From: a virus
Strand: one strand, 5' to 3'
IMG/VR virus record: IMGVR_UViG_3300047444_000134
Location: 1-44,054 of that record
Length of the DNA: 44,054 nucleotides
Positions 7,507-42,960 of this stretch are shown piece after piece. A program made the translations under genes and the position numbers. Within the stretch, counting starts at the first letter, position 1, and each line of letters begins with the position of its first letter. A model generated the notes under the pieces. It made no database searches, was not told the DNA's origin, and saw only the letters and a list, made by a program, of their open reading frames with translations.

Positions 7507-7758
7507 CTACTGTAGTGCTGCGTTAGGATCAGCAACTGCGATGTAGATTCCATTCATGTCGCTTACGATCTGTTCGATTGCTTGTTCGATCGCAAGACTC
7601 TGATCAGCCTCAGACAGTTCGTCACTCGTGATGATGACTCGTGCTAGGAGTGACGCACTGTTGTAGCCATGGGCCTTGTCCCAGACATCCCATTCATCGT
7701 AGTCAATGAACGGGTTGTACGGGTTGTCTGGTGTGGACAGCATGTGCTCTACCATCAT
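7507..7758 (-). CDS. Conserved phage protein of unknown function (PDNPYNPF family)
   Basis: 83 aa; the start overlaps the stop of the RNA polymerase-like gene by 4 nt (ATGA), so translation is coupled. A second Met at codon 6 is also possible. The protein is acidic: TPDNPYNPFIDYDEWDVWD, then HGYNSASLLARVIITSDELS and a helix EADQSLAIEQAIEQIV. I recall similar small proteins directly downstream of the same polymerase-like gene in other phages, so the pair probably works together, but no function is known. Confidence 0.7.
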   Translation of the reverse strand: MMVEHMLSTPDNPYNPFIDYDEWDVWDKAHGYNSASLLARVIITSDELSEADQSLAIEQAIEQIVSDMNGIYIAVADPNAALQ

Positions 7759-10445
7759 GCACCTTCAATCAGTGCACGCTTGAGCTCAGACAGCTTCACA
7801 CCAAGAGCGTCTGCAACCTCGACCTGTGTGTAGCCTCGACGAAGCAGGGTCAAAGCCTTCGACTTCTGAGAGTCGTTCAGCGCTGTGTGGTTGCGCGGCG
7901 ATGCGAGTTCCTTGACACGCTCAAGGTCAGCGTGCTGCAGGATCTGGTCCATCTTGTTGTGCGAGATTGCGCCGGCCTGAATGGCACGCCATTCTTCGTC
8001 GGTGATCACGATCCGCTGCTTCACAGCACCAGTTCGCATGCGTGCGTTGTTGAGTTCGCGAGATTCAAGCTTCTTGATCTCAGCCTTCTCCAAGTCAGGA
8101 TTGGCTGCTCGCTTAGCACGAATGTTAGCGCCTGCGATGATGTTGGCCTGGCGCTCAAGAGGGGAGTTACGAAGGGCCACGTTCAGCTTGGCGTTCAGCG
8201 TGCGGACCTGTTCTGCATAGACCTTCTTAGCAGTGGGGTTCGCAACCATGGGCTTGGTGTGCACCATCTCAAGCCGGGCTTGGTTAGCCAGGTGCTTGAG
8301 TGCGTTCGAGTGATCCGCATAGATCATCTCGATCGGCGTACCTGAAGACAGGTCGTGTGCGTTCTTGACTTCACCGAGACGAGGAACTTCAATCGTCTTG
8401 GGTACGTCTTTGCCTTTGCGGTCGATGTAGCGAGCGCCAGTTTCTTCGTACTTCTTCTCACCAGTGGTGAGATCGATCGGGCCACCGTTCTTGACGGATC
8501 GTGCCTTCCGCTCGTTGATGCGAGTGGTCGACGTTGTTCCGCTGTTGGAGATCAGTGTCGATGCTCCACCCTGTGGTCCTTCTTGGTACCTCTTGCGAAG
8601 AGCGGCAATCCCATTCGCCTTGGCCGAGCCGCGGTAATCGAGCTTATGCTTTTCAGCATCGATGACAACCATGGAATGCCGAACTGCTGCAGCAAGCTCG
8701 GTCGAGTTAGCACCCTTGATTGTCATGTCGGAGACGAGATTGGAGATCTTGCCCATCTCGACCTGCTTGGTGCGAGGACTCATGACAGGCATACCGTCGT
8801 ACTTTGGGTATGCGCGCTGAGGATCGAAACCCTTGAGTCCTTCGAGCGCCGGCTCAGTCTTGATCTTCCGATTGTTGTTCGGGATGACCAGAACTGTGTC
8901 GCCATCGAAGTCGGCACCAGACAGACGCTCAGCGACCGTGTGGTGAATGCCGATTGCATCCTTGGCGTTGGGGCCGATGGTGCGTCGCGCTTCAGGCTGA
9001 CGGTTGTTCACGATGAGCTCAGGGATCTCGAACTTACCCCCGTGCGGGAAGCGAACGAGAACGACTCGATCGCCATCACGGAAGTTGGGCGCGTAGACCT
9101 CTGTCGGTTTCATGGACTCGACAGGCAATATGACATGCGTGCGTTGTCCAGGAAGCGCGGCGGCCTTGAGGTGGATGGCAGACGAGTCAGCGTCATCCGA
9201 GAACGACTTGAGCAGCTTCTGCTTTACAGCAGGGTTGGTCAGTTGACGAAGCGAATCGAACTCGTCCTGCTTGCGCCTGAGCGCTTCGCCGAGCTGTTCC
9301 TTGGCCAGGGTCTTGCTCTGCTTCGAAAGCATCTGAGACGAGAGCGTCTTCGACCATCGATCCCAGTCGCCTTCCTCGTTGACGATGTTCATCGCCGAGG
9401 TGACGCGCTTCTTGCCCGGTTCTCCACTCTGAAGCTGCCGGCTGATCATGGCACCGAACGGGTTCTCTTCGTCGATCTTGCCGGTGGTGCTGTCTTTCTT
9501 CATCGACTTCATGGCGTCAAGCTTGTTGCCCGTGTTGCTCTTGTTCGTGTTGAACAGGAGGTCGACACCTTCAGGCAAGTCATCCTTGTAGACGGCCATA
9601 CCCTTGAGGTAATGCGTACCGTCGATGGCGATACGAACCTGAGCGTAGCTTCCCCCACCGAGCGAGAGATCCTTCTTGCCCGGTCGAACGAAAATGACAC
9701 CATCCGCGTGGGTTCCACCTTCTTCGGCGTAACGAACCGCGACACGGTTTGAGGAGATGGAGAGCGGAGGCAGGATGCGATCGTAGTTGCGTCCGTTGTC
9801 CGTGCTGAACGTCGAAGGGAGCTGAACCTGATCGCGGTTCTTGTAGAACTCCTTGTAGTCGGTTCCAGGAGCGGCCAGAACCTTGGTGGTGGTCTGGTGC
9901 TTGGTGCCGATCTGATCGACCTTCAGGTACAAGACGTGGTAGCCCTCAGACTCGAGCCGAGAGATCGCGACGTCAAGGGTTTGACGCGGGATACCAAGGT
10001 GGTACTCGACGCCGGAACCGATGTCGATGTACTTCTTCTGTGCTACCGCTTCGCGAAGCATGTTGGCGGTCGACGTTTGAATATCGACACGATCCTTCTT
10101 GCCTGGCTCGAGAAGTGTACGCACGTACGACTCGTTCTTGCCCATTCGCTCGCCGATCTTGACGTTCGACCAACCCTTGTCCTTGAGCCGCTGAGCCATG
10201 TTGATGTCAGCCTGAAGCGTCTCGTTCTTGGCGATGGACTTCGCGGCACGGAGTTCGGTGGTGGACATTCCGAAACTCTTGGCGATCTGTGCTTCGCTCA
10301 TGCCGTGCTTGTCCTTGAGCTCCTTGACCGTAGACATGAAGCTGCGGCCACGCTCGTCGGGCGTCTTTCCCGATCCCCAAGGATACCGGCCAGACCTACG
10401 GAGGATACCGTAGTGCGCCAGGTAGTCTTCTTCGTTGATCTCCAC
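7755..10445 (-). CDS. Putative single-chain DNA-dependent RNA polymerase, YonO/crAss-gp66-like, with HTH domains
   Basis: 896 aa, GTG start behind GGGAGGGG. Residues 507-520 read ERLSGADFDGDTVL; the DFDGD is the metal-binding signature of the double-psi beta-barrel RNA polymerases. Upstream VVLVRFPHGGK (461-471) and IGIHHTVAERL (498-508) fit the order of the beta-prime barrel (R-P ... hydrophobic-H-x-x-V ... ADFDGD). A first, beta-like barrel probably spans about 245-310 with Lys-rich HYLKGMAVYKDDLP. Helix-turn-helix segments lie near 49-72 and 91-112, with another at the extreme C-terminus (RRGYTQVEVADALGVKL). VSDMTIKGA, VRHSMVVIDAEKHKLDYRGS is a strongly conserved block in this phage family. 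YonO (SP-beta) and crAss-like gp66 are single-chain polymerases of similar size; activity here is inferred. The N-terminus carries LAHYGILRRSGRYPWGSG, a possible targeting element. Confidence 0.72.
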   Translation of the reverse strand: MEINEEDYLAHYGILRRSGRYPWGSGKTPDERGRSFMSTVKELKDKHGMSEAQIAKSFGMSTTELRAAKSIAKNETLQADINMAQRLKDKGWSNVKIGERMGKNESYVRTLLEPGKKDRVDIQTSTANMLREAVAQKKYIDIGSGVEYHLGIPRQTLDVAISRLESEGYHVLYLKVDQIGTKHQTTTKVLAAPGTDYKEFYKNRDQVQLPSTFSTDNGRNYDRILPPLSISSNRVAVRYAEEGGTHADGVIFVRPGKKDLSLGGGSYAQVRIAIDGTHYLKGMAVYKDDLPEGVDLLFNTNKSNTGNKLDAMKSMKKDSTTGKIDEENPFGAMISRQLQSGEPGKKRVTSAMNIVNEEGDWDRWSKTLSSQMLSKQSKTLAKEQLGEALRRKQDEFDSLRQLTNPAVKQKLLKSFSDDADSSAIHLKAAALPGQRTHVILPVESMKPTEVYAPNFRDGDRVVLVRFPHGGKFEIPELIVNNRQPEARRTIGPNAKDAIGIHHTVAERLSGADFDGDTVLVIPNNNRKIKTEPALEGLKGFDPQRAYPKYDGMPVMSPRTKQVEMGKISNLVSDMTIKGANSTELAAAVRHSMVVIDAEKHKLDYRGSAKANGIAALRKRYQEGPQGGASTLISNSGTTSTTRINERKARSVKNGGPIDLTTGEKKYEETGARYIDRKGKDVPKTIEVPRLGEVKNAHDLSSGTPIEMIYADHSNALKHLANQARLEMVHTKPMVANPTAKKVYAEQVRTLNAKLNVALRNSPLERQANIIAGANIRAKRAANPDLEKAEIKKLESRELNNARMRTGAVKQRIVITDEEWRAIQAGAISHNKMDQILQHADLERVKELASPRNHTALNDSQKSKALTLLRRGYTQVEVADALGVKLSELKRALIEGA

Positions 10446-12081: not shown

Positions 12082-13302
12082 TTACACGGCGAGATCCTTG
12101 CCACTTTGCTTGTCACTTTGTGTTTTGACCTTGGCAAAAGTGGCAAACTTGGCCTCGTTGAAGCTCTTTTTGGCCGTGAGGGCCTTCTTGACCGCCGTGT
12201 CGATGGACGCGTTCGAGACCAGACTGTAGTAGTACAGGTCCGAAAACGTCGTATTTAGGCGATCAATCCGGCCATGTGCCTGATGCCAGTTTTTGTACGA
12301 ATATGTCAGCGAGTAGAACACCATCGCGTCAGTATCCGTACAGTTCCACCCTTCAGCTCCGGCAACGTACTGTACTAGGTACAGCCACCGTTCGGTGTTT
12401 GGTACGGCTTCGTGCTTGTGCCCATTCCACTCCGAAATATGGATCTCATCGGCCAACGTGCGCAAGGCCTCGAGCTCGTAGTCGAAGTTGTAGAACACGA
12501 TCAGCTTCGGGTGCTTCTTCATCAGTTCTCGCACCGCCAATTGGCGCGACACATCAGAATATGCGACCTTCCGCATGAGATAGAACAGTTCGCCGATGTT
12601 GAGGATCGGCCGGTCTTCGAAGATGTGCCAGCGCTCACGCAAGAGCTTGTTCATCACCTCACGATCATACTCAACCTTCACTTCGGTCGAGTGACGCGTC
12701 GTGTGGCGTTCGTAGGGCATATGGACGAGTAGCCTGTTGCGAAGCCGCACAAGCTTGCCCACGTCCACATACCGCTCGATCTTCGGGAACTTGGAGTAGC
12801 TCGCGTAGATCACATGCTCTCGCTTGAACTGCGTCCGGTTACCGTACCAACCGTTCGCTATGAACACCGGCACGTAGTCCATCCATGTGTCGCCGGGGGT
12901 AGCGGACAACAGAATCCAGTTGTTCCGCTTGGCGATGAAGATGAACGCTTTGGCCCATTCTCCACTTCCGACGATTCGCTGTTCGTCGAAAATGAAGAAC
13001 GCATTCTTGACGTGCTTGTACTTCGCGATGTTGTTCCACGAGTCGACGCGCAGGACACCATGCATCGTAGCATCACTGCGCGTACCGACGTTGAACTTCA
13101 GAAACTCTGTCTCCCAGTCAAGGGAATCGCGCTTCTTGGCGGTGGTGATGACGTACACGTCCATCTTCGCAGCTGCGTGCGCTTTCATATAATATGCAGC
13201 CGCGGTGAGTGACTTGCCTGTCCCGACACCGCCCCAGAGGATCTTGCCATTGGCGAGTTCGTCAACAGCCTTCCTCTGGTGCGGGTACAGGGTCACTTCC
13301 AT
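12082..13302 (-). CDS. SF2 (DEAD/SNF2-like) helicase
   Basis: 406 aa, ATG behind GGAG. Motif Q/I region [20 protein letters not shown] with Walker A GGVGTGKS (24-31), DEQR box (106-109) in [10 protein letters not shown], motif III LLSATP (132-136), and C-terminal motifs [17 protein letters not shown] and QAHGRIDR (motif VI). It would translocate on or unwind DNA during replication or recombination. The C-terminal 50 residues are Lys-rich. An AT-rich regulatory region follows. Confidence 0.88.
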
Positions 13303-14714: not shown

Positions 14715-14848
14715 AGGTGGTACGTTCCGAACTTGTGCTTGCGGCGGTCGAGTTCCGCCTGGTGCTTTGTCTTGTGGATCCATGCCTCGAGGAATATCCC
14801 CGAGAGCGTGAGTACTGCGAGGAGACCGATGAGTATCCAGGCAGCCAT
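14711..14848 (-). CDS. Small membrane protein, 45 aa
   Basis: ATG overlapping the preceding stop by one base. MAAWILIGLLAVLTLSGIFL forms one transmembrane helix, followed by a charged tail, HKTKHQAELDRRKHKFGTYH. First of three overlapping single-span genes (45, 40 and 64 aa). Such tandems suggest a small membrane complex, but there is no direct clue to its role. Confidence 0.6.
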   Translation of the reverse strand: MAAWILIGLLAVLTLSGIFLEAWIHKTKHQAELDRRKHKFGTYHL

Positions 14849-15372
14849 CACCGGAGACTGTCCTCGAACTCCTCGAACTCCTCCGGCTCGCCCTGTCGCG
14901 AACCAGCGCCGACCTCCTCGATGTCCGCGTACTTGAGCTCGAGCGCGTCCTCGTGGATCGTGACGTAGATGGCGACCAGGTAGGCCTTACGGCCCGTCTT
15001 GCCGCTGACCTCCCAGTCGTACGGCCGGATGATCAGGTCGACCTTCTCGATGTCCGCCCAGTCGACCATCATGGCCGTGTCGGCGTCGAGCGTGTTACGG
15101 CCACGGGACGTCAGAAGGATCACTCGAGGAGGACGCTTGCCCTTGAAGCTGACGGTCACGGGGAGGTGGAACAGGGGCTCGTCGCCGTCCTCGCGCGGGG
15201 GCTTGTCCTTGACGTTCCAGCCGTCCGCCTTGAGCTCCTCCCACTGCTCCGGCGTGAGGACCAGGGAGAAATTGCGCTTGCCCTCGTCGTTGTAGGTGGT
15301 CTGCCGGCCCTCGAAGTTGCGGAAGATGATCCGCGCGTCCTCGAAGGTCAGGTTGTTGTCGTTGATGGCCAC
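14848..15372 (-). CDS. Putative OB-fold ssDNA-binding-like protein, 174 aa
   Basis: GTG start at 15372, overlapping the upstream stop by one base (TAGTG); a longer frame upstream lies inside the neighbouring gene. Conserved blocks: NLTFEDARIIFRNFEGRQT, RNFSLVLTPEQWEELKADGW, VSFKGKRPPRVILLTSRG, VDLIIRPYDWEVSGKTGRKA, and a highly acidic tail (EPEEFEEFEDSLR). An all-beta protein with an acidic C-terminus next to replication genes suggests a gp2.5-like single-stranded DNA-binding protein, but this is an inference. It shares the same scaffold as its 98-aa upstream neighbour. Confidence 0.6.
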   Translation of the reverse strand: MAINDNNLTFEDARIIFRNFEGRQTTYNDEGKRNFSLVLTPEQWEELKADGWNVKDKPPREDGDEPLFHLPVTVSFKGKRPPRVILLTSRGRNTLDADTAMMVDWADIEKVDLIIRPYDWEVSGKTGRKAYLVAIYVTIHEDALELKYADIEEVGAGSRQGEPEEFEEFEDSLR

Positions 15373-15668
15373 TATTCGCTCGGTCCAATCATGTTGAGGT
15401 AAGCCTTGATACCGGTCATTCCGCCGACCTGCCAACGGAACGGTGTGACGCTGATGTCGACTCTTTGGTTTTCGATGACCTTGATCTGGCGCTTTGCGTT
15501 CACGTGGACCTTGAGGAAGTAACGCCCATCGACACACGTGACGCTGTAGCCCTCAGCGTTGAGATCTTCGACTTGTTGTGGGGTGAGATAGACGCGAAAG
15601 GTTCGGTTCGTCCCGACGAACGCTTCGAGTCGCACGTTGAAAAGCATGACTTCAGAAGGAGCGTTCAT
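15372..15668 (-). CDS. Shorter paralogue of the OB-like protein, 98 aa
   Basis: The product keeps the framework of the next gene in shortened form: MLFNVRLEAFVG, RTFRVYLTPQQVEDLNAEGY, LKVHVNAKRQIKVI, VDISVTPFRWQVGGMTGIKA. It matches LTPEQWEELKADGW and VDLIIRPYDWEVSGKTGRKA of the 174-aa protein. It lacks the acidic tail. Tandem duplication followed by divergence is likely; it could modify or cap an oligomer of the longer protein. Confidence 0.6.
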   Translation of the reverse strand: MNAPSEVMLFNVRLEAFVGTNRTFRVYLTPQQVEDLNAEGYSVTCVDGRYFLKVHVNAKRQIKVIENQRVDISVTPFRWQVGGMTGIKAYLNMIGPSE

Positions 15669-17207: not shown

Positions 17208-17398
17208 TTCACGAACTCCTTGATGGTGAAGGACCCCGGAGGACCCATGATCCTCTTGGCCAACTCGGGGTCGGTGACTCTGACGTGGCCCGTCATCCGC
17301 TCGCCGTCGTCCGTCACCACGATCTCTGCGGTACCGACGACAACCCGCTTGCCGTTCACGTGCTTGACAAGCGGGACGTACTTCAGACTCGATTTCAT
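17204..17398 (-). CDS. Hypothetical protein, 64 aa
   Basis: ATG overlapping the polymerase stop by 4 nt (ATGA), so expression is coupled to the polymerase. MKSSLKYVPLVKHVNGKRVV, VGTAEIVVTDDGERMTGHVR, VTDPELAKRIMGPPGSFTIK. Small beta-rich protein. The longer frame reading through the polymerase gene is a shadow. No family recognised; the position suggests an accessory to replication. Confidence 0.65.
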   Translation of the reverse strand: MKSSLKYVPLVKHVNGKRVVVGTAEIVVTDDGERMTGHVRVTDPELAKRIMGPPGSFTIKEFVK

Positions 17399-20300
17399 GC
17401 GATTAGCTCCGCGTAGCTGCCGAACTTCTCGATGGTTTCGATGGCGTCCTGGGCCAATGCCTCGTAGTAGCCCATGTCGATGATGTCCGTGATGGACCCA
17501 GTGTTCTCGAGGGACTGCGTGAGCTCCTCGAAAAGCATCCGGTCTAGCGGCGTGAGGTGGAAGAGCTTGAGCATCTCCGCCTCCAGCCAGTGGTAGTCCT
17601 TCGTGCCGCCGACGGCGTAGTTCTTGTCGTCCTTGACACGCACCAGCTTTCCGCCACCAGCGCTCTTGAGCACCGGGACGAACATGCCGACACGACCCAC
17701 GTGGTACATCCCCTTGTACGGCGTCGCAGGCGTGGCCTCCGCGTCGTTGAAGTCGATGTACATCGCGCCCTGAGTGACCTGCTTGGTCTCGCACAGGTCC
17801 CGGAACGTGATCGCCTCGCCGCTGAACAGCGCCTTGTAGACGACCGGATGCTGGAACTGCTTGCCGACCGCGTCCCAGTGTCCTTCCTCGTCCTGAGCGA
17901 TGTAGACGGCATCGTTCACGAGGCAGAACTTCCGATACGTCTTCTCGTGCTCGAAGGTGTAACCGTACCTCTCGCCGAAATTCATGACCGCGGCGATGTC
18001 CTCTTCGGTGGCGTTCGCGATCTTGATCGAGTCGGTCTTGATGTGAACCACCCTGCAGCCGAGTGACTGCATGTAGTTCTTGAGGTCGATCATGAACAAC
18101 GCGCCCCGCTTGGCAACAATGTTGTCCTTGTTTCGCGGGTCCCTGAACGGGTTGTCGAACGACGCTGACGTGAGGCCGTACACGATGTTGATCACGATCT
18201 TCAGCGCGTAGGCCAGTTCCTTGGCCCCGTCCTCGGTGACGTCCACTCCGATGAGCTTCTTGGCTTCCTCGTAGTCGCCATGCTTGATCGCCAAGCGGGC
18301 GTCCATCAGTTGCTTGAAGCGTGGCGTGTAGATACCGAACGCCTCCAGGTTGACCAGAGACGTAGGGTGCATCGACGCGACGTCCAGAACGGCGACATCC
18401 TCGTAGATGCCAGGCTCGGCATAGACGTAGCCTCCCTCGCTCGGGTCCTCCCCGCGGTAGCTGCTCTTCTGCAGCTTGTTGTACGGGTCGAACGTGTAGC
18501 CAGGGAACTCCTCCGACAGGTCCGTGTAGATGAACTTGGACTGCGGATTGCGGTCGTCTCCGAAGATGATCTTCGCGGTGTGCTTGGCGGTCGTGTCGTT
18601 GACCTGAAGGCCGCTGAGGCTCGCCAGGATCTGACGGGCCACGAAGTCCTGCTTGCGGTCATCGAACACGGCCTCAGTGCCCAGGACGTCGTTCTTGCAG
18701 TACTCGACGACGAGCGGCCACATCTCCGGAGGCACCGGCTGGTCCCACGGAATCTCCATCTCCATGTGGTGGAGACCAAGCTGGATCATGAACTTCTTCA
18801 GGCCCTGCTTGATCGAGCTGAAGTCGTAGATGTCCGCGTAGGACAGGTTGTACGCCTCGCCGAACATCGCGTTACGGTTGCCGCTGATGATGGCCTGCGA
18901 GAGGTTGTACAGCTCCTCGTTGGTGAACCCCATCATGGCGGCCCAGAGGATGTGGTTGTCGTACCGACGGTTGTTGAAGCCGACCAGCTTGAACTGGAAC
19001 AGCGCCTCGACATCCGCGGCCGACGGGTTGATCATGACGACAACGTCGTCGGTTCCCCGGAACTTCCAGCAGATGACGAAGAGGTTGCGGTAGACCTCGA
19101 CGTCGAAGATGACGATGCGGTCTTCCTTGGGCTTGAAGGTTGCCGGCACCGTCGCCTCGGCCTCAGCCGCCCACTTCATCTGAGCGACGACCTTGAGGCA
19201 GTAGCCGGCGTTGTTGGTGCTGTTGTTGGCGAAGGCGATGATGCGCGGACGCATGTCCGTCACGTCGTACGCCAGGCCCTGCTCGTAGGCGTCGTCCAGG
19301 ATCTTCTTGATGAAGTCGATGGACGGCTTGGTGCCCGGGTTGATCTCCTTGCGGAGGTTGCGACCGATCAACTCCCGCAGGCCACGCTCACTCTGCAGGG
19401 TATCCGCAGTGTGCATCTTCTTCTCCTTGAATGGCAGCCCGCTGTTGATGGATGCAATGGGTACGGCATTGCACTTGGTCAAACGGCGACGCAAGCCGGC
19501 GTTACCGAGGAGCGTCTTGATCTCGATCCCCTCGGAATATTCCGCAGCGATTTCCTTGACGTCGAGATCAGTGGTGTAGTGCAAGTGCACGCCGTTACCA
19601 CCCTGGCTCAATTCGGCGTACGTTGGCGGCCACTTACTGGCGGCCTTCATGTTGAGCTCGAGGTTCTTCTCGCCATCGGCTCCGCGAATATCGAAGTCGA
19701 TGACAATCAAGTTCTCTGGTACTTGGACGTAGTGCAGCTGGTTCGTGTCCAGATCCCGGAGTGCGAGATGGTTGTCTTCCCACTTCTTCTTCGGGAAGCC
19801 CTTCGAGTTCGCTTCCTGCGCCGGCATCCCCGCGAGCAGCTCGTCCAGCAAAGACTCAGTCTTGTCGAGGACCAGCGTCGCTGCCTTCTTCGGCTTGACC
19901 GGTGTACGGAACGGCTGAAGAGTGAACCCGCTGTAGTAGCTGCGGACCCAAGCGCCCTCGACCATCTTGCGATCGTGGAACTCCGCGAAGTAGTCCTTCA
20001 ACGCTTCACGGAACTTGATCATGGTGAGCTTCCAGTCGATCGCTGCCTCGACCTGGTAAGCCTTGTACAGCTCCCAGGCCTGCTTCAGCGTCGTGGAGTC
20101 CTGCGCCTTGAACAAGTCGAAATATTCCATCACGAAGTTGTAGAACACGTCCGTGTTGTTCATCATCGACTCAGGCCGGTACTCGTTGTACGCGTTCTTA
20201 CCCATGCCCTTGTAGACCTCAAGGCAGTGCTGGGCAATCGCGCCGAGCTCGAAGTTGATCCGCTCCATGAGCGCGTAGTAGTGGTCAGGCTCCAACTTGT

Positions 20301-21195
20301 TCCCGGTGGGGACCACGTCGATGAGCCGTCGGATGAGACCCGACTTTGCGTCCGTGATCTTGACGGGTTTGTTGGTCCCCATGAACACCATCGCGTTCAC
20401 GGACATCTCGTACTGCGGCTTGTACTTCTCGTTCACGAACATCGGCTCGTGTGAGATGACCGAGTTGAGCTTGCTATTGTCCTCGATCTTGGACAGGTCG
20501 CCGTCGTGCTGGATTGCCACCAGTGGATTCGACTTGAACGCCTCGGTCGAGAACGAGTTGTTGCTCCCGACCAAAGCCTTCGCCTCAAACATCGCGACGT
20601 AGCCCTCGAAGAGCCTCTGCACGATCTTGAGGATGGTCGACTTGCCCGTGCCGCCGGGACCGTAGAAGACCAAGAACTTCTCGATCTTCTGGGAGGCCCC
20701 AGCGACAATAGATCCGATCGCCCACTCGATCTTCGCCCGCTCTTCCTCGCTGTAGAGGACCGAGAGAAGTTCGTCCCACGCGCTGTGATCGCCAGGTCCG
20801 AGGGAGTACGGAAGCCGGCGGCTCACGTAATCCTTCTTCTTGACTTCGGTGTTCGCGAACGTCAGCTTGCTATCCAGTTGGACAGCGTTGTCGCTGGCGT
20901 TCTTGAGATAGCGCTTGTACTGGTTCCAGATGTTGGTGCCGTTCGAGCGGAGGAGCTTCACCGTGCACGCGACGCCCTTGCTCTTCAGGTCTTCGGCAAA
21001 CGCCAGAACTGCCGAGTCGACCATCCGTTGGACGTCGTACTCCTTGGTCGACCACATCCCTTCGTCCTCGTCCCAGATCGCATAGAACGACTGGCCGCGG
21101 ACCATCAGGTCTTTGGAGTGACCAACGATGAAGTCGGGATATACCTCGGTGACCCCACCCCGACCTTCTTTCGTGCATACTGTGAAGAAGTCCAT
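17395..21195 (-). CDS. Fusion of SF3 helicase, AEP-primase-like region and family B DNA polymerase
   Basis: 1266 aa, ATG behind GGGGAGGG. Region 1 (about 1-430): D5/P4-like SF3 helicase with Walker A GPGGTGKST (179-187), a Walker B-like IQHDGDL (228-234) and sensor FMGTNKP (271-277). Region 2 (about 450-600): archaeo-eukaryotic primase-like, with VIDFDIRG (498-505) as the DxD motif and GGNGVHLHY (532-540) as the sxH-type motif. Region 3 (about 690-1266): family B polymerase with exonuclease motifs IFDVE (696-700), VGFNNRRYDN (738-747), YCKND (832-836) and polymerase motifs LDVASMHP (937-944), KIVINIVYGL (999-1008), HIKTDSIKI (1051-1059). In motif C the first Asp of DTD is Lys. A replisome in one chain with the helicase ahead of the primase is unusual. 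Catalytic roles follow from the motifs; primase activity is the least certain. Confidence 0.85.
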   Translation of the reverse strand: MDFFTVCTKEGRGGVTEVYPDFIVGHSKDLMVRGQSFYAIWDEDEGMWSTKEYDVQRMVDSAVLAFAEDLKSKGVACTVKLLRSNGTNIWNQYKRYLKNASDNAVQLDSKLTFANTEVKKKDYVSRRLPYSLGPGDHSAWDELLSVLYSEEERAKIEWAIGSIVAGASQKIEKFLVFYGPGGTGKSTILKIVQRLFEGYVAMFEAKALVGSNNSFSTEAFKSNPLVAIQHDGDLSKIEDNSKLNSVISHEPMFVNEKYKPQYEMSVNAMVFMGTNKPVKITDAKSGLIRRLIDVVPTGNKLEPDHYYALMERINFELGAIAQHCLEVYKGMGKNAYNEYRPESMMNNTDVFYNFVMEYFDLFKAQDSTTLKQAWELYKAYQVEAAIDWKLTMIKFREALKDYFAEFHDRKMVEGAWVRSYYSGFTLQPFRTPVKPKKAATLVLDKTESLLDELLAGMPAQEANSKGFPKKKWEDNHLALRDLDTNQLHYVQVPENLIVIDFDIRGADGEKNLELNMKAASKWPPTYAELSQGGNGVHLHYTTDLDVKEIAAEYSEGIEIKTLLGNAGLRRRLTKCNAVPIASINSGLPFKEKKMHTADTLQSERGLRELIGRNLRKEINPGTKPSIDFIKKILDDAYEQGLAYDVTDMRPRIIAFANNSTNNAGYCLKVVAQMKWAAEAEATVPATFKPKEDRIVIFDVEVYRNLFVICWKFRGTDDVVVMINPSAADVEALFQFKLVGFNNRRYDNHILWAAMMGFTNEELYNLSQAIISGNRNAMFGEAYNLSYADIYDFSSIKQGLKKFMIQLGLHHMEMEIPWDQPVPPEMWPLVVEYCKNDVLGTEAVFDDRKQDFVARQILASLSGLQVNDTTAKHTAKIIFGDDRNPQSKFIYTDLSEEFPGYTFDPYNKLQKSSYRGEDPSEGGYVYAEPGIYEDVAVLDVASMHPTSLVNLEAFGIYTPRFKQLMDARLAIKHGDYEEAKKLIGVDVTEDGAKELAYALKIVINIVYGLTSASFDNPFRDPRNKDNIVAKRGALFMIDLKNYMQSLGCRVVHIKTDSIKIANATEEDIAAVMNFGERYGYTFEHEKTYRKFCLVNDAVYIAQDEEGHWDAVGKQFQHPVVYKALFSGEAITFRDLCETKQVTQGAMYIDFNDAEATPATPYKGMYHVGRVGMFVPVLKSAGGGKLVRVKDDKNYAVGGTKDYHWLEAEMLKLFHLTPLDRMLFEELTQSLENTGSITDIIDMGYYEALAQDAIETIEKFGSYAELIA

Positions 21196-21212: not shown

Positions 21213-21749
21213 CTAGTAGTCGTTTTCGATCACGTAGTAGCCCAGTTGGTACCAGAGCTCAACGCGTCGTTGATCATTCGGTGGATTGCGCAGTGGGAAG
21301 AAGCCTCCGCTTCCGTCGGGTTCGTAGAGTCTGTGGATGACTCGCTCCACGATTTCCTCGACCTCGGCGTGCGGGAAGATCTTCCAAGCGTCGCTGTACT
21401 CATGGAGCCCGATGTTTTCCATGAGGTGCCAGAACCAGTAGTGGGGCTCACCGCTGTCCGCCTCGAAAGCGAATTTGCGGGAAAGCCCCACCATAAGCTC
21501 CAAGAAGGAGCACCCCAGTTCCACCCAGCTGCGGTCGATGTCGTGCTCGCCAGTCTCCCGGACGAACTCCAACCGCAGATCCCGCCCATCCTCCAGTCGG
21601 TTGTCGTCGTGGTCCACAAGCCAGACGAACTCGGTCGTGTAGAGCTGCTTGAGCAGCTTCCAGAAGGTGATGGATGGATCCTGGGCGTTCACGTCAGCGA
21701 CTTGACTGTAGAGCCATTCCAAATATGACTCGTCAAGTGGCGGGTTCAC
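21213..21749 (-). CDS. Conserved phage protein of unknown function, 178 aa
   Basis: GTG start overlapping the upstream stop by 4 nt. Conserved blocks: FWKLLKQLYTTEFVWLVDHD, DNRLEDGRDLRLEFV, LGCSFLELMVGLSRKFAFEA, YWFWHLMENIGL, FFPLRNPPNDQRRVELWYQL. I recall this as a widespread family in siphoviruses of Gram-positive hosts, without known function. Mostly helical, soluble. It stands between the membrane-protein cluster and the polymerase. Confidence 0.75.
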   Translation of the reverse strand: MNPPLDESYLEWLYSQVADVNAQDPSITFWKLLKQLYTTEFVWLVDHDDNRLEDGRDLRLEFVRETGEHDIDRSWVELGCSFLELMVGLSRKFAFEADSGEPHYWFWHLMENIGLHEYSDAWKIFPHAEVEEIVERVIHRLYEPDGSGGFFPLRNPPNDQRRVELWYQLGYYVIENDY

Positions 21750-22387
21750 AACCCAAGAACCTCCTCGGAGTACTTGCCCTCGGACAGAGCGATCTCGCAG
21801 TCGGACGTCGCCTGGTGACTACGGATGTACACAACGCACGGGTCACCGGACTTGTTTCCGTCGAACACGAGGTTGGCCGTACCCTCGCCGATGAGGCCGA
21901 TACGGACCTTGCCCTCGATGGCCTTGTCGCCGGGCTCTGCGGCCAGCGTGTCGTCTCCACGGTAGTACGTGAACGTCAGAGCCGTGTGGTCCTTGAGCCC
22001 CTCGAAGAAGTCCTCGTCCGTGATGATGTACGGCGTGGACGTGTCGTCGGGAACCGGCGTCGGGTTGGTCGCCTTCGGCCTCTCACGGACGATCGTCGGG
22101 ATCTTCGGTGCCGGCACGGGTTCCATCTTGGAGATCAGCTTGCCCGTCTGATAGGGAGCCAGGAGACGATCCACGGTGGACTGTTCTTCCTTGACGACCT
22201 CACTGACGGCGTTGAGGTTGATCTGCTCACGTTCGGCAGCGATCTTCTCGGCCATTCGGTCCCGGTAGAACTCCTTGGCCTCGTCGAGGTCCTCGCGGTA
22301 CTTCTTCTCGAGCCTGAGCTCAAGCGCCTGCTTGCAAACGAAGAACCCAGCGGCGAAGCCGACAACGCCGGCGAGGACCACCTTCAC
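21746..22387 (-). CDS. Membrane-anchored conserved phage protein, 213 aa
   Basis: GTG start overlapping the DUF6353-like stop (GTGA). Residues 2-18 form an N-terminal membrane anchor (VVLAGVVGFAAGFFVC), 25-60 a coiled coil, then a Pro-rich linker and a C-terminal domain beginning PYIITDEDFFEGLKD with TFTYYRGDDTLAAE, GDPCVVYIRS and CEIALSEGKYSEEVLGL. This C-terminal pattern occurs in phage proteins usually encoded beside DUF6353 genes. Function unknown; coupled expression suggests a complex with the DUF6353 protein. Confidence 0.72.
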   Translation of the reverse strand: MKVVLAGVVGFAAGFFVCKQALELRLEKKYREDLDEAKEFYRDRMAEKIAAEREQINLNAVSEVVKEEQSTVDRLLAPYQTGKLISKMEPVPAPKIPTIVRERPKATNPTPVPDDTSTPYIITDEDFFEGLKDHTALTFTYYRGDDTLAAEPGDKAIEGKVRIGLIGEGTANLVFDGNKSGDPCVVYIRSHQATSDCEIALSEGKYSEEVLGL

Positions 22388-23310
22388 TTCTTCTCCCCGA
22401 TCAGCTGGAAGATCGGCCCGTCGACGTTGAAGTCGAGCAGGATGACATCACCGATCTCGCCGTTGATCTCGTTGACGAAGCCGCGGGCGTCGGAGTCGTA
22501 CTTGTTGAAGATGCCGAGGTCGATGTGACCGTCACCGTTGCCGTTACGGACCCAGCCGACGAACTGGCCGGCCTCGGTGCGCGGGATGCCCAGCTGGTCG
22601 TAGACCTCGTTCAGGAAGACGTGACCGCGGGAGATCAGCATGTCGTTCATGAAGTTCTGGCGCATCTGCAGGAACATGCGGTTCGCGGCGGTGCTGTCCT
22701 GCCAGTAGGGCGACTGGTCGTCGAACCACTTGGCGTAGCCGGACGGCTGCTTCATGCGGTCGACCACCTTGACGGTCTTGACCGCGACGCCTTCGTCGGT
22801 GTCGACGGCCACCTCCTTCTCGACCACGCCGTAGCGGAACTCCGTGTCCTTGTCCGAGCCGAGCTCCTCACGGACGCGCTCGCGGTACTCGTTGAAGGAC
22901 TGCTGGATCGCGCCGTAGGCAGCAGTGGCAGCGATGGTGCGGCGGTTCAGGATGCTGTAGGAACCGGTGATGGCGACCACAGTCAGGAGGCCCACGCCGA
23001 CAGCCGGCGCGTAGATCTTGGCGATGTCGATGGCGAGCTTGATCCGAGTGGTGAGGCCGTCCTTCTGGGCGTCCTCCTCCGAGTAATTGTCGCTGTGCTC
23101 GGCCTGGGCGTGAGCGATCTTGGCCTTGCGCTCCTCCGCCTCCTTGATGACCTCGTCGACCTTCAGGGTCGCCTTGCAGGACAGGTAGATGGTGGCACCC
23201 ATGCCGACGAAGCCGGCTCCGAGCAGGAGGACGGGGCTGTGCTTCTGGACGGTCAGGACCTGTCGGCCCACCCCGCTGGTGACGAGGTTCTTGATGGCCA
23301 CGAGGCTCAT
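22384..23310 (-). CDS. DUF6353-like membrane protein A, 308 aa
   Basis: ATG behind CAAGGAG. Two transmembrane segments: about 25-47 (SPVLLLGAGFVGMGATIYLS) and 95-120 (IYAPAVGVGLLTVVAITGSY). Between them lies a charged helical loop (ATLKVDEVIKEAEERKAKIA); after them the diagnostic RTIAATAAYGAIQQSFNEYR. The soluble C-terminal half includes FDDQSPYWQDSTAANRMFLQ and FLNEVYDQLGIPRTEAGQFV. This layout matches DUF6353, a family in phages of Gram-positive gut bacteria and actinobacteria with no known function. A second, shorter paralogue lies at 25922-26692. Confidence 0.78.
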   Translation of the reverse strand: MSLVAIKNLVTSGVGRQVLTVQKHSPVLLLGAGFVGMGATIYLSCKATLKVDEVIKEAEERKAKIAHAQAEHSDNYSEEDAQKDGLTTRIKLAIDIAKIYAPAVGVGLLTVVAITGSYSILNRRTIAATAAYGAIQQSFNEYRERVREELGSDKDTEFRYGVVEKEVAVDTDEGVAVKTVKVVDRMKQPSGYAKWFDDQSPYWQDSTAANRMFLQMRQNFMNDMLISRGHVFLNEVYDQLGIPRTEAGQFVGWVRNGNGDGHIDLGIFNKYDSDARGFVNEINGEIGDVILLDFNVDGPIFQLIGEKK

Positions 23311-25921: not shown

Positions 25922-26692
25922 TCAATGAGCGGAGAAGTACCCGCGTACCGGAATCGTACGGAAGTCGATCACGATGCACGGACGGCCGTCAGGAGCCATC
26001 GCGGTGCTGTAGTCGATCTCGAACTTCGCGTCCGTGTTCCATCCGAGGTTGTCGCTCTCGGACGTGCTCTCCAGACCGATCAGGCTGTAGAAGTCGCTGA
26101 GCGACGCGTAGTCCTGATGGATGATCTGGTAGTTGATGTCGTTCTCAGCAGAACGAATTGCCTCCATGTCGCCGTTGAAGTAGCGACCGGTGTGGGCGTC
26201 CATGCAGAGGACGGTTCCCGTGCCGACCAGAGTGACCTCAGCCGAAGGCGGCCGACGATCGATCCGGTCCTGGGCGACGGCGTCGCGGACCTTCTGCTCT
26301 TTGTTCTTGCCGATCTGCTCGACGACCTTGTTCTGGTACTCCTTGAAGCCCTTCTGGACTGCGGTGTACGCAGAGGCCAACGCCGCAGCTCGCGTCGTGG
26401 AAATGCGGTTCGCGCCGATGATGCAGGCGATTGTCAGGACGGCGGTGCCGGCGGCCGGGACGTAGTAGCGCCAGGTCAGTTCGACCTTCTCGCGCTTGCT
26501 GAGCGGGTGGGTCTTCTCCTCCACGTCCAGCATTCCCTGGTGATCGGCGATGACCTGGGCGGCCTTGAACGTGGCCTTGCCGGTGAAAACGATGGAAGAA
26601 ACGGTTCCCACCACGGCGATGCCGGTGAGAATGGCCGGCGCGTTGTCGATCGCGGCTTTCTGGGCGGTTCGGAAGAATGCGCCGATGCTCAT
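25922..26692 (-). CDS. DUF6353-like membrane protein B, 256 aa
   Basis: ATG overlapping the 59-aa gene stop by 4 nt. Same layout as protein A (22384-23310): first span about 18-40 (NAPAILTGIAVVGTVSSIVF), loop beginning GKATFKAAQVIADH, second span about 77-98 (VPAAGTAVLTIACIIGANRI), then STTRAAALASAYTAVQKGFK (compare AATAAYGAIQQSFNEYR) and a soluble C-terminal domain with LVGTGTVLCMDAHTGRYFNG and GWNTDAKFEIDY. The C-terminal domain is shorter and diverged. Paralogy is seen directly in the shared layout and motifs. Confidence 0.75.
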   Translation of the reverse strand: MSIGAFFRTAQKAAIDNAPAILTGIAVVGTVSSIVFTGKATFKAAQVIADHQGMLDVEEKTHPLSKREKVELTWRYYVPAAGTAVLTIACIIGANRISTTRAAALASAYTAVQKGFKEYQNKVVEQIGKNKEQKVRDAVAQDRIDRRPPSAEVTLVGTGTVLCMDAHTGRYFNGDMEAIRSAENDINYQIIHQDYASLSDFYSLIGLESTSESDNLGWNTDAKFEIDYSTAMAPDGRPCIVIDFRTIPVRGYFSAH

Positions 26693-38756: not shown

Positions 38757-40727
38757 TTAAGCGGCCTCGACCAAGAGCCAGCTGACGATCGAGGTGTCGG
38801 TCGACGAAGTACTCTTGATCTGGAAGTTGGTCCCCGCGGTCAAGTTGCCAACGAACAGCGCTCCTGGCGTGCCTGCTGGAGTAACGGTCCCAACGAAGAT
38901 GCGTGTGTTGGACGTGAGTGTGTTGTTCACGACAGTGACAGCTCCGGCGGTGAGAGTGGCAGTGCCCATTCGGGCATTCGTCCCCTCCTTGACCCGAATC
39001 CCCTTGCCGGCGAGACCGATGATGATGTCGGAATCGGCGGTACCGTACTGCGCAACACCCTGCCGACCCCACGAAGCATCACGAGCGGCCGAGCCAGTGC
39101 CAGCAGTGATCTTACCGGTGCCGTCGATTCGGAATCGGTCGAAACCGTCCGAGCCGTTGACGTTACCGGAGATCACCGTGTTGGTGGAGGAAGTGGGCTG
39201 AAGCGCAAGGTTACCCTTGGAGTTAGCCCCACCATTCAACGTAGCGGTAGTGCTCAACGTCACCGCGGTGGCGAAGTTGAACGGACCGGAACTGACTTCC
39301 AGCACTGCACTCGGCAGGTTGGTGAACCAGTTCGAAGAACTCGCTCCCGTACCTGCAAAGTTGACGTTGATGAACCTGACACTCTGGTTGAGAGCGACGT
39401 TGACCGAGAACTGAACACCAGACGTTCCGGAAGCCACGATGGGTGACACGAAACGAGCGCTGTTGACATACCCGGTCGAGCTTCCCGACCAGTTGATGTC
39501 GTAGTTGGTTCCAGAAGCTCCCGCACCGCTGCCCGAGATGAAGACGTCGTGGAAACTGATGGGGTTTCCAGTGCCCTCGACAGAGATGGCATGGGTCTGG
39601 TTGTTGATGAACCGCATCGAGTTCACGTGAACGTGCGACGCGCCACCAGTGATCCGAAGACCGATGGATCCCTGCTGGATGACACCGCCATCGAGTTGAA
39701 CGTTCTGCGGGGAGCCGTTCGGGCCGTCTTCGATCAGGACGTTGGAACCGGTGCTCGGACCGAGCGCGTCGAGGTTCTTGATGAACGACGCCGCACAATT
39801 ACCCTTGATGTGGAAGGCCGAACCGGTGCCACTCGACGTCCAGGTGAACAGATTCGTCCCCAGGATGTCCCACGAGTCCTCGAAACGGATGCCGTCGAGG
39901 TTCGCAGATGCGCCAGTCGTCACGCCGCCAGAGATGATCTGGATGTCGGACATGAACGAATTGACCGCATCGCCGGAAGCCGCGTTGCCGAGCCAGTAGA
40001 TGCCGCCGGCCGAAGATCGAATGATGAGCTTACTGAGCATCGTCCCGTCAGGGTTGTTGCTCGAGCCCGTGCCGGCTGCGATTTTGGTAGCCCAGCCGTT
40101 GATGTACCAGAAGTCACAGTTCGTGATCTTGGTGCGTCGGCAAGCCGAGACGTCAATACCGTCGGCAATGGGGTTGCTCGTGGTCGTGGAGTTCGCGCCG
40201 ACGACCGACAGATCACGGACCTGACAGTTGTTGGCGGTGATCGAGATCGCGGCAGCACCGGTGAAACCGGAACCGATGACAATCTTGGTGACCTCGGCAC
40301 CGGAGCCTTCGAGAACCATGCCCGCGACCGAAAGCGCAAGCGCCGTCGAACCGCTGAGCAAATATGTCCCCGGAGGAAAGAACACCTTTCCGCCAAAGGT
40401 CGGGTTGGCGATCCCGATGGCAGTGGTGATTGCGGCGTCATCGGCAGTGGTACCGTTGCCGGTCGCGCCATGGTCCTTGACGTTGATCGTCAGGGAGTCC
40501 TTCTTAACGGCAATGGCCGGAGCCTGCGCGTCAGGAAGAACACCGCCGGACAGATCCGCCTTGGCGGCCATGGCTGTCGTGAGTGAAGCAGTGGTGATGA
40601 CGTCCGCCGGCAACTGGGAGTCGGGCAGCAACCCACTCACCAAGTCGGCCTTGAGGGCCAGAGAGGCGTTGACTGTGTCGATCGCACTCTGGAGCTTTGC
40701 TGCGGTCCAACTGGTGACCGTAGCCAT
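38757..40727 (-). CDS. Beta-helix (pectate-lyase-like) tail protein, possible receptor-binding or glycan-degrading spike
   Basis: 656 aa, ATG behind GAAAGGAGG. N-terminal helices with repeated ALKADLVSGLLPDSQLPAD / AAKADLSGGVLPDAQAPA, then VKDHGATGNGTTADDAAITT, the classic entry to a right-handed beta-helix (Pectate_lyase_3), FFPPGTYLLSG, and many rungs such as GIDVSACRRTKITNCDFWYI. The C-terminal 100 residues (TLTAGAVTVVNNTLTSNTRI ... GTNFQIKSTSSTDTSIVSWL, LVEAA) form a beta-sandwich common at the end of tail fibres. Such proteins often bind or cleave host polysaccharide. Location upstream of the tape measure is unusual. Confidence 0.8.
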   Translation of the reverse strand: MATVTSWTAAKLQSAIDTVNASLALKADLVSGLLPDSQLPADVITTASLTTAMAAKADLSGGVLPDAQAPAIAVKKDSLTINVKDHGATGNGTTADDAAITTAIGIANPTFGGKVFFPPGTYLLSGSTALALSVAGMVLEGSGAEVTKIVIGSGFTGAAAISITANNCQVRDLSVVGANSTTTSNPIADGIDVSACRRTKITNCDFWYINGWATKIAAGTGSSNNPDGTMLSKLIIRSSAGGIYWLGNAASGDAVNSFMSDIQIISGGVTTGASANLDGIRFEDSWDILGTNLFTWTSSGTGSAFHIKGNCAASFIKNLDALGPSTGSNVLIEDGPNGSPQNVQLDGGVIQQGSIGLRITGGASHVHVNSMRFINNQTHAISVEGTGNPISFHDVFISGSGAGASGTNYDINWSGSSTGYVNSARFVSPIVASGTSGVQFSVNVALNQSVRFINVNFAGTGASSSNWFTNLPSAVLEVSSGPFNFATAVTLSTTATLNGGANSKGNLALQPTSSTNTVISGNVNGSDGFDRFRIDGTGKITAGTGSAARDASWGRQGVAQYGTADSDIIIGLAGKGIRVKEGTNARMGTATLTAGAVTVVNNTLTSNTRIFVGTVTPAGTPGALFVGNLTAGTNFQIKSTSSTDTSIVSWLLVEAA

Positions 40728-40739
40728 TAGGCCTCCTTT

Positions 40740-41528
40740 CTAAGGTCCTGTGGTGGCGGTGTAAGTGCCGTCTCCGTTGTCGATGGCAGTATCCCAGTCG
40801 ATCTGGAACGTGTCCGGGTCGAGCATGGTGAGGGCGTACTCAGGTGCGGTGTACGTGACGGTGCCGTTACCGTTGTCGGTGACGGTCAGAAGGTTACCGG
40901 AATCGTAGAGATCCAGAAGTTCTTGGTAGTTGGGCAGCCGTGGCGATGCTTCGTCGGTGCCGTAGATGATCTCTTCGATTCCAAGAAGTGCTTGTGGGTC
41001 GGTGTAACGGGAATCGATGGTGATGTGTGCGCCGTTTCGGTAGCCCGTCACTGCCGGCGGCATCGTGGTGATCTTCCACATGAACTCAGTTACCTGGGTT
41101 ACGTCGTTGATCGCCTTGTGCCCACGAGTGGTGGGTTCGGCGGTCGCTCCGTAGACCAGATTGATCTGGTAGTCCTTCTGCGAAAGGTCGTTGCCGACCA
41201 GCGTTCGGTACGAGAACCCGAACTGCTTCCGTCGCTGCCCCGACAAGAACATCCCAGGCCGAACTTGCACCGATCCGTCGCATTGCTCGAACTCGATCGG
41301 GTAGGTGTAGGCCTGGATGGTGGCTTCGTACTCTTCAGGCACGGGGTTGTTAGAGTACTTGACTCCATCGACGTAGTACGGCTTGGCAGTGCCGCCAGCG
41401 GGGGCCCTGGTGACGGCGGTCAGACCGTTCCAAGCGACCCCAGGTTGACCGTCGACGTACAAGACGCCCTGGTCAATGCCGGTGTGGTAGTAACGCTGGC
41501 CGTTACCGTCCCAGGTAAGCCTGGTCAC
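40740..41528 (-). CDS. Second major tail protein-like protein
   Basis: 262 aa, GTG behind GAAAGGAGG. It parallels the protein at 42097-42960 along its length: LTWDGNGQRYYHTGIDQGVL, AWNGLTAVTRAP, YEATIQAYTYPIEFEQCDGS, RKQFGFSYRTLVGNDLSQKD, GHKAINDVTQVTEFMWKITT. Only the C-terminal 60 residues differ (LLTVTDNGNGTVTYTAPEYA ... DNGDGTYTATTGP). A tail tube paralogue next to a beta-helix gene may form a specialised tube segment or tip ring, or replace the main subunit. Confidence 0.8.
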   Translation of the reverse strand: MTRLTWDGNGQRYYHTGIDQGVLYVDGQPGVAWNGLTAVTRAPAGGTAKPYYVDGVKYSNNPVPEEYEATIQAYTYPIEFEQCDGSVQVRPGMFLSGQRRKQFGFSYRTLVGNDLSQKDYQINLVYGATAEPTTRGHKAINDVTQVTEFMWKITTMPPAVTGYRNGAHITIDSRYTDPQALLGIEEIIYGTDEASPRLPNYQELLDLYDSGNLLTVTDNGNGTVTYTAPEYALTMLDPDTFQIDWDTAIDNGDGTYTATTGP

Positions 41529-42096: not shown

Positions 42097-42960
42097 CTAG
42101 AAGTCGATCTCCCAGTCGTTGTCGACGTTGGCCGCGAACTGGTAGCCGACGTTGGGCTGGGCGGTGACGATGGTGTTGGCGGCGATGACCACGGAGCCGG
42201 TGACAGGCAGACCGTTGATGTAGTAGGTGACACCGGTGACGGTCGGGATCGTGATCGTGTGCGTCGCCGAGGTGTAGGTCGGGATGACCGGAGTGACCGT
42301 GATGACGGTGCCGGCGAAGATGGCCTGAATGGCCTGGATCGACGGCAGCTGGGGGTCCTGACCGACGGTGCCGTACAGGAAGGCCTCGAGGTTGGCCAGT
42401 GCGGCGGCGTCGACCTTGGTCGAGTCGACCGTCAGCGTGGACGCGTTCTTGAAGCCGGGGACCGCGATCGGCGTGGTCGAGACCGCCCAGGTGAGCGCGA
42501 TGGCGTTCGGGTTGTCGTTGATGGACTGGTAGTCGCGCTGCGATGGGGCCGCGAGGCAGTTGTAGACCATGTGCAGCTTGTAGCCGTACTGCGTACCGGC
42601 CAGGTCGTTTCCGACCTCGGTGCGGTAGCTCAGGCCGAAGGTCTTGCGCGGCTGCTGCCCCAGCATGAGACCGGGCTCCAGCGCGACGGAGCCGTCGCAC
42701 GCGGCGAACTGGTCCGGGTAGGTGAAGGCCTCGATGTCGGCGTCGAAGCGCTCGGTCGAGACGAGGTTCAGGTACATCGCGTTGTCCGCGTACTGCGGGG
42801 TGGCCACGGCACCGGTCGGCTTCTCGGTGACCTTGGTGAGACCGTTCCAGGCGTAGCCCTCGTTGTAGTTGCCGGAGACGTCGGGCAGGTAGAGGACGCC
42901 CTTCGAGATGCCGGCCTCGTAGAGACGGTGGCCCGTCGGGTCCCAGGTGAGCTGAGTCAC
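42097..42960 (-). CDS. Major tail protein with C-terminal Ig-like domain
   Basis: 287 aa, GTG behind GAGGAG. LTWDPTGHRLYEAGISKGVL, YAWNGLTKVTEKPTGA, FDADIEAFTYPDQFAACDGS, RKTFGLSYRTEVGNDLAGTQ, then LTVDSTKVDAAALANLEAFL. It forms the tail tube. After residue about 215 comes an added domain, VITVTPVIPTYTSATHTITI, PTVTGVTYYINGLPVTG, NVGYQFAANVDNDWEIDF, related to the last 90 residues of the capsid protein. This domain probably decorates the tube surface. Confidence 0.9.
   Translation of the reverse strand: MTQLTWDPTGHRLYEAGISKGVLYLPDVSGNYNEGYAWNGLTKVTEKPTGAVATPQYADNAMYLNLVSTERFDADIEAFTYPDQFAACDGSVALEPGLMLGQQPRKTFGLSYRTEVGNDLAGTQYGYKLHMVYNCLAAPSQRDYQSINDNPNAIALTWAVSTTPIAVPGFKNASTLTVDSTKVDAAALANLEAFLYGTVGQDPQLPSIQAIQAIFAGTVITVTPVIPTYTSATHTITIPTVTGVTYYINGLPVTGSVVIAANTIVTAQPNVGYQFAANVDNDWEIDF

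Follow-up and report, generated by a model that had tools for sequence, protein, structure and literature searches.

A HelPrimPolB-type gene joining helicase, PrimPol and family B polymerase modules in a tailed-phage record, and its probable role as a replicase

The gene and its modules

The window, that is, the whole stretch of DNA analysed in this study, is a linear virus record of 44,054 bases (IMG/VR record IMGVR_UViG_3300047444_000134) with genes of a siphovirus-like tailed phage, among them those for the portal, large terminase, tape measure, minor and major tail proteins, endolysin and holin. Here we describe its HelPrimPolB gene, located on the minus strand, which starts with ATG, has no internal stop and encodes a protein of 1266 amino acids. 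In an earlier reading of the sequence alone (the sequence-only reading) this gene was presented as one uninterrupted frame joining a helicase, an AEP-type primase and a family B DNA polymerase (PolB) with its exonuclease. The frame is as described, and the strand, which that reading did not give, is added here. The gene is divided as follows.

17395..21195, minus strand: whole gene, in the order SF3 helicase, AEP/PrimPol, helix bundle, exonuclease, family B polymerase (full-length match to phrog_4210)
19906..21195, minus strand: SF3 helicase module, residues 1-430, with the DUF5906 core at 177-290 (PF19263, TIGR01613, homology to EL753P1 gp37)
20635..20661, minus strand: Walker A motif GPGGTGKST, residues 179-187 (K185 and T187 in 158/158)
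19405..19878, minus strand: AEP/PrimPol catalytic core, residues 440-597 (AlphaFold2 and Foldseek)
19681..19704, minus strand: AEP motif I, VIDFDIRG, residues 498-505, with D500 and D502 (Asp pair in 158/158)
19576..19602, minus strand: AEP motif II, GGNGVHLHY, residues 532-540, with H537 (158/158)
19516..19527, minus strand: AEP motif III, IEIK, residues 557-560, with E558 (E558 and K560 in 158/158)
19141..19404, minus strand: helix bundle, residues 598-685, from the AEP core to the exonuclease (both AlphaFold2 models; Foldseek)
18496..19128, minus strand: 3'-5' exonuclease, residues 690-900, with D698, E700, D746, Y832 and D836 (all five in 158/158; AlphaFold2 and Foldseek)
17398..18483, minus strand: palm, fingers and thumb of the family B polymerase, residues 905-1266, with D938, K999, Y1006-G1007 and D1055
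18028..18045, minus strand: motif C, HIKTDS, residues 1051-1056 (H1051, K1053, T1054, D1055 and S1056 in 158/158)

The helicase and AEP motifs quoted in the sequence-only reading (GPGGTGKST, VIDFDIRG, GGNGVHLHY) were all found in place, as were those of the polymerase part: IFDVE, ending at E700, YCKND at 832-836, LDVASMHP at 937-944, KIVINIVYGL, starting at 999, and KTDS at 1053-1056. The proposed anatomy of the chain, helicase plus AEP plus exonuclease and PolB, is upheld by predicted folds, profile matches and residue conservation.

Homologues of identical module order, which that reading proposed to look for, are abundant. PHROG 4210 matches residues 1-1264 of the protein (E=0), and a search of 50,697 phage records gave 466 matches, 252 of them covering at least 80% of it, in phages of Gordonia, Arthrobacter, Streptomyces, Rhodococcus, Faecalibacterium, Lactococcus and others. 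A scan of viral contigs with the single protein recovered one locus only, whereas with the alignment as query at least 80 viral contigs, together with at least 80 contigs of bacterial genomes, were found to carry HelPrimPolB homologues. Conservation was assessed on 158 aligned members, the window and 157 other loci, each with the full-length gene in a single frame and with the same module order; all counts out of 158 refer to this set. Cultured phages carry the full-length gene as well, the closest being Streptomyces phage RosaAsantewaa (Scapunavirus, 42.7 kb), with 64% identity over the full length, and a contig end from another sample (L001) is 100% identical over residues 1072-1266. Since the PHROG 4210 match spans the full length and the catalytic residues vary little or not at all among the 158 homologues, the motifs are not fortuitous: judged from these comparisons, the frame is a real and conserved gene, and a chance reading is ruled out.

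The same data bear on the concern, raised in the sequence-only reading, that the frame could be an assembly artefact or a chance fusion of adjoining genes in one contig. Nothing was found in its favour, and the frame recurs in hundreds of homologues of equal length from independent cultured phages and from contigs of viruses and of bacterial genomes. Moreover, pairwise distances between members correlate across all modules (r 0.62-0.87; at most 0.18 under permutation), and the fused chain therefore appears to have been inherited mostly as a unit. We regard the artefact as already refuted, its residual probability being negligible. A functional split of the gene was also considered for three loci, L162 (Eubacterium ramulus) and L021, with one in-frame stop each, and L163, with a frame change; on inspection these look like decay or sequence error and not like functional separation. 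Separately, an additional short upstream open reading frame resembling the helicase core (29-30% identity within residues 135-343) was observed in two loci, L039:7185-7682 and L066:7026-7673, and is possibly a second SF3-like ATPase gene.

Evidence for the three enzymes

In the Pfam search, the helicase core gave the sole match of the whole protein (PF19263, 3e-14), so general domain models alone would miss two of the three enzymes. The TIGR01613 model (P4-family primase C-terminal domain) matches at 2e-16, under its curated cut-off, and the module is homologous to the helicase half of gp37 of Eggerthella phage EL753P1 (E 5e-15). The residues K185 and T187 of Walker A, N275, R289 and R290 are invariant; judging by position and not from a structure, N275 is presumed to be the sensor asparagine, and R289 and R290 the arginine finger. 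The Walker A lysine, these presumed residues and the homology to known SF3 domains place the module in this superfamily.

The sequence-only reading had named a non-AEP fold of residues 440-640 as the outcome that would count against it; structure prediction and Foldseek agree instead on an AEP fold. The AlphaFold2 model of residues 430-690, built from 76 sequences, has a mean pLDDT of 91.9, and its ten best Foldseek matches in the PDB are all NrS-1 or pRN1 PrimPols (E from 8e-5 to 1.4e-3, probability 0.94-1.00), the next match having E=0.48. The TM-scores, at 0.25-0.32, are low, which probably reflects differences in how core and helix bundle are positioned, and on these models the module is only distantly related to the NrS-1 and pRN1 enzymes. 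A sequence-profile search of the PDB with the AEP part returned nothing relevant, and the relation surfaced through the fold search.

The motifs of the AEP superfamily are hhhDhD/E (I), sxH (II) and hD/E (III) (PMC10345425); their counterparts here are VIDFD, GVH and IE, the third being the IEIK motif absent from the list given in the sequence-only reading. The catalytic residues D500, D502, H537 and E558 are invariant in all 158 members. When the AEP profile was compared with the N-terminal AEP of EL753P1 gp37, motifs I-III paired up (HMMER E 1e-4, hhalign E 8.5e-4), IEIK being aligned by hhalign with GIEV. Residues 598-685 adjoin the AEP core and are helical in both AlphaFold2 models, and the Foldseek alignments to 3m1m and 9aam cover the primase together with its helix bundle domain (HBD). 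This segment is probably the counterpart of the HBD with which pRN1 and NrS-1 start primers (PMC8718748, PMC11009956).

The exonuclease and polymerase parts, modelled as residues 600-1266 (mean pLDDT 92.7, pTM 0.87), have the right-hand fold of family B. All of the best 50 Foldseek matches in the PDB are family B enzymes, including archaeal polymerases, E. coli Pol II, Pol alpha and the ASFV polymerase. A profile search likewise matched E. coli Pol II (3e-7), with KTDS aligned to DTDS; the search of the window with Pfam PF00136 gave no match. Exonuclease residues D698, E700, D746, Y832 and D836 and polymerase residues D938, N1003, Y1006, G1007, K1053, T1054, D1055 and S1056 are invariant, and K999 of motif B is Lys in 155 members and Arg in three. 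With its exonuclease and polymerase motifs, the region is assigned to family B. A clean two-state variation was seen at residue 742 of Exo II, close to the invariant D746, where Asn occurs in 97 and Cys in 60 of the 158 sequences.

Motif C departs from the canonical YxDTD: in H1051-I-K1053-T-D1055-S, Lys replaces the first Asp and His replaces Tyr. The Lys was noticed in the sequence-only reading, and this observation stands; it is not a peculiarity of the window protein, being present in all 158 members, and by this invariance it is not a sign of damage. The lack of YxDTD does not disqualify the protein as a PolB, because the accepted groups piPolB and PolB2 also lack the first Asp. In the wider set of phage PolBs compared here the first Asp is absent throughout, with Lys in the fused group and Asn in six stand-alone enzymes (Lactococcus LW32, SANTOR1, crAss-like cr55_1, FtMidnight, EL753P1 and BRET), which have NTD[G/A]. 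The second Asp of motif C is the metal ligand, while the first points away, and Sulfolobus Dpo2, with an HxxxD motif and no first Asp, is as active as the replicase Dpo1 (PMC8764526). By analogy, we infer that H1051 plays the part of the invariant His of Dpo2; H1051 and K1053 probably stand in for Tyr and the first Asp, with D1055 as the metal binder and polymerase activity kept.

The altered motif C allows two other interpretations of the polymerase part. It could be catalytically weak or dead as a replicase and have a structural, repair or translesion role, bulk synthesis being left to the AEP as in NrS-1, whose PrimPol can replicate without a PolB (PMC8718748). The missing first Asp agrees with such a role, as does the precedent of the exonuclease-deficient archaeal PolB2, also with HxxxD, which is a translesion extender (PMC8764526). 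However, archaeal PolB2 has lost its exonuclease motifs, whereas the HelPrimPolB family has kept them, together with the motif A Asp, the second Asp of motif C and the motif B Lys, in 155-158 of 158 members; in addition, the stand-alone relatives with NTD are in most cases recorded as their phage's DNA polymerase. We therefore consider an inactive or weak polymerase unlikely. Alternatively, the PolB part could start chains by itself in the manner of piPolBs, efficient polymerases whose motif C likewise has no first Asp (PMC7544198); the invariant Lys would then contribute to initiation, and the AEP would be auxiliary. Against this, all three AEP motifs are invariant, and primer making by the AEP thus seems to be under selection. 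In the nearest stand-alone phage PolBs this position is occupied by Asn, and in at least one case (EL753P1) such a PolB is adjoined by a separate primase; furthermore, the best 50 structural matches are DNA- or RNA-primed PolBs, with no protein-primed or primer-independent enzyme among them. This second interpretation appears very improbable.

Genome context and proposed role in replication

Three genes near the HelPrimPolB gene are listed first; the downstream counts given here and below use the 54 loci that are long enough to tell.

21213..21749, minus strand: conserved upstream neighbour, PHROG 4678 (within 1.2 kb upstream in 142/157 loci)
14848..15537, minus strand: single-stranded DNA (ssDNA)-binding or single-strand annealing protein (phrog_4787, 4e-59; PF24083, 2e-60)
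12082..13302, minus strand: SF2-type helicase, downstream neighbour (phrog_62, 5e-61; downstream in 46/54 loci)

The protein encoded at 14848..15537 is a likely replication partner of the HelPrimPolB product. HNH nucleases and an exonuclease (phrog_3953) are encoded in the window as well; the open reading frames scanned in it did not yield another DNA polymerase, primase or DnaB-type helicase.

Several further observations were made on the genome. A DUF6353 gene lies within 4 kb upstream of the HelPrimPolB gene in 132 of 142 loci, and the window has two such paralogues (PHROG 2152) near it, at 22384-23310 and 25922-26692 on the minus strand, with hydrophobic, membrane-like stretches. An RNA polymerase bearing DFDGD (PHROG 4291) is found downstream in 34/54 loci. 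In the window it corresponds to an 896-aa protein (7755-10445, minus strand) that matches the PHROG 4291 'RNA-dependent RNA polymerase' with E=0, contains ADFDGD and presumably resembles the single-chain RNA polymerases of the YonO/QDE-1 type; the phage may thus possess a transcriptase as well as a replicase in single-chain form. Two genes, 40740-41528 and 42097-42960 (minus strand), both match one major tail protein family, PHROG 2645, and a 656-aa protein (38757-40727, minus strand) resembles a polysaccharide deacetylase at its C-terminus and shows a short match to a tail spike.

Taken with the lack of a further DNA polymerase, primase or DnaB-type helicase among the scanned frames and the presence of the ssDNA-binding, exonuclease and SF2 helicase genes, the protein is very probably the phage's own multi-enzyme replicase. 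The established part of this interpretation consists of the domains, their order, the predicted folds and the conservation of catalytic residues; the last argues, short of proof, that all three activities are used. From SF3 biology, the N-terminal motor would form a hexameric ring on DNA and, driven by ATP, unwind the duplex in the 3'-5' direction. The AEP core would make a short primer, with the helix bundle positioning its initial two nucleotides as in pRN1 and NrS-1. The primer end would then be handed to the PolB site, either within one chain or across to its neighbour, as the comparison with Pol alpha-primase suggests, and PolB would extend and proofread it. The role as main replicase is likewise proposed by analogy.

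Several points weigh against the replicase interpretation. The linear metagenome record may be incomplete, and a further replication gene could lie outside it; several small open reading frames of the window have no family match; and no biochemistry on any HelPrimPolB member was found in the literature searched, where the name of the group was met only in the 2020 survey cited below. Ring formation and primer hand-off, moreover, are a matter of inference only.

The 'nearly complete replisome' in one polypeptide, as the sequence-only reading put it, is a reasonable extrapolation from the parts. Its most specific form, a single chain, probably a hexamer, that unwinds, primes, hands primers over internally and extends them with proofreading through a His/Lys motif C, with the ssDNA-binding protein as the sole other subunit, is offered tentatively, as conceivable and somewhat more apt to fail than to hold. 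If the parts work as suggested, many actinobacterial, Firmicutes and gut phages would possess a natural replication machine encoded by a single gene, which would lend itself to investigating primer hand-off and to primer-free isothermal amplification of DNA. The His/Lys motif C shared across the family also provides a ready test of PolB function without the first Asp.

Comparison with known systems

The fusion, which the sequence-only reading implied to be novel, has been published. The name HelPrimPolB comes from Kazlauskas et al. (2020, PMC7544198), who introduced the group for the same domain organisation and noted its divergent motif C, crediting an earlier paper with the description; the gene is also already annotated as 'DNA primase/polymerase' in many phages. 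Our equation of phrog_4210 with this group rests on the shared architecture. With an SF3 helicase followed by a PrimPol, both N-terminal to PolB, whole-length homology to phage proteins of the same architecture and a divergent motif C, the window protein is, by its sequence, an ordinary member of the group. RosaAsantewaa gp39, Gordonia phage Conley gp61 and Rhodococcus phage ReqiPoco6 gp072 have the same modules in the same order, with KTDS, and show no difference in kind; the ReqiPoco6 record already mentions a primase C-terminal (helicase) domain and a PolB domain.

The related stand-alone phage PolBs of cr55_1, Efquatrovirus SANTOR1, Lactococcus LW32, Nonagvirus BRET, FtMidnight and EL753P1 (profile E from 1e-17 to 2e-28) likewise lack the first Asp of motif C, but they have NTD[G/A] in place of KTDS and are not fused to a helicase or primase. 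Lactococcus LW32 was also considered as an unfused helicase-first version. Its gene 1 (965 aa) has one stretch resembling a P-loop and matches the AEP weakly at 720-823 (E 4e-5); the family profiles failed to recover it convincingly, and it stays a lead.

The statement of the sequence-only reading that in known fusions the primase precedes the helicase, the order being reversed here, is borne out by comparison with pRN1 ORF904, NrS-1 and the EL753P1 protein. These likewise are single chains containing an AEP core, a helix bundle and an SF3-type helicase; the PrimPol lies ahead of the helicase in ORF904 and NrS-1 (PMC8718748), and in EL753P1 gp37 the order is AEP, helix bundle, D5_N and SF3 core. 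Thus they have the AEP first and PolB unfused, whereas the window protein has the helicase first and PolB fused. In EL753P1 (L177:1510-5869) the PrimPol-SF3 gene is directly followed by a stand-alone PolB with NTDG. As judged from gene order, the fused arrangement is not a simple read-through of such a gene pair, because the pair has the first two modules in the opposite order. Finally, in Pol alpha-primase an AEP primase, a primase helix bundle and a family B polymerase act together as well, and the window PolB part counts Pol alpha among its top structural matches. There, however, they are separate subunits without a helicase, whereas the window protein unites them in one chain and keeps all of its exonuclease residues.

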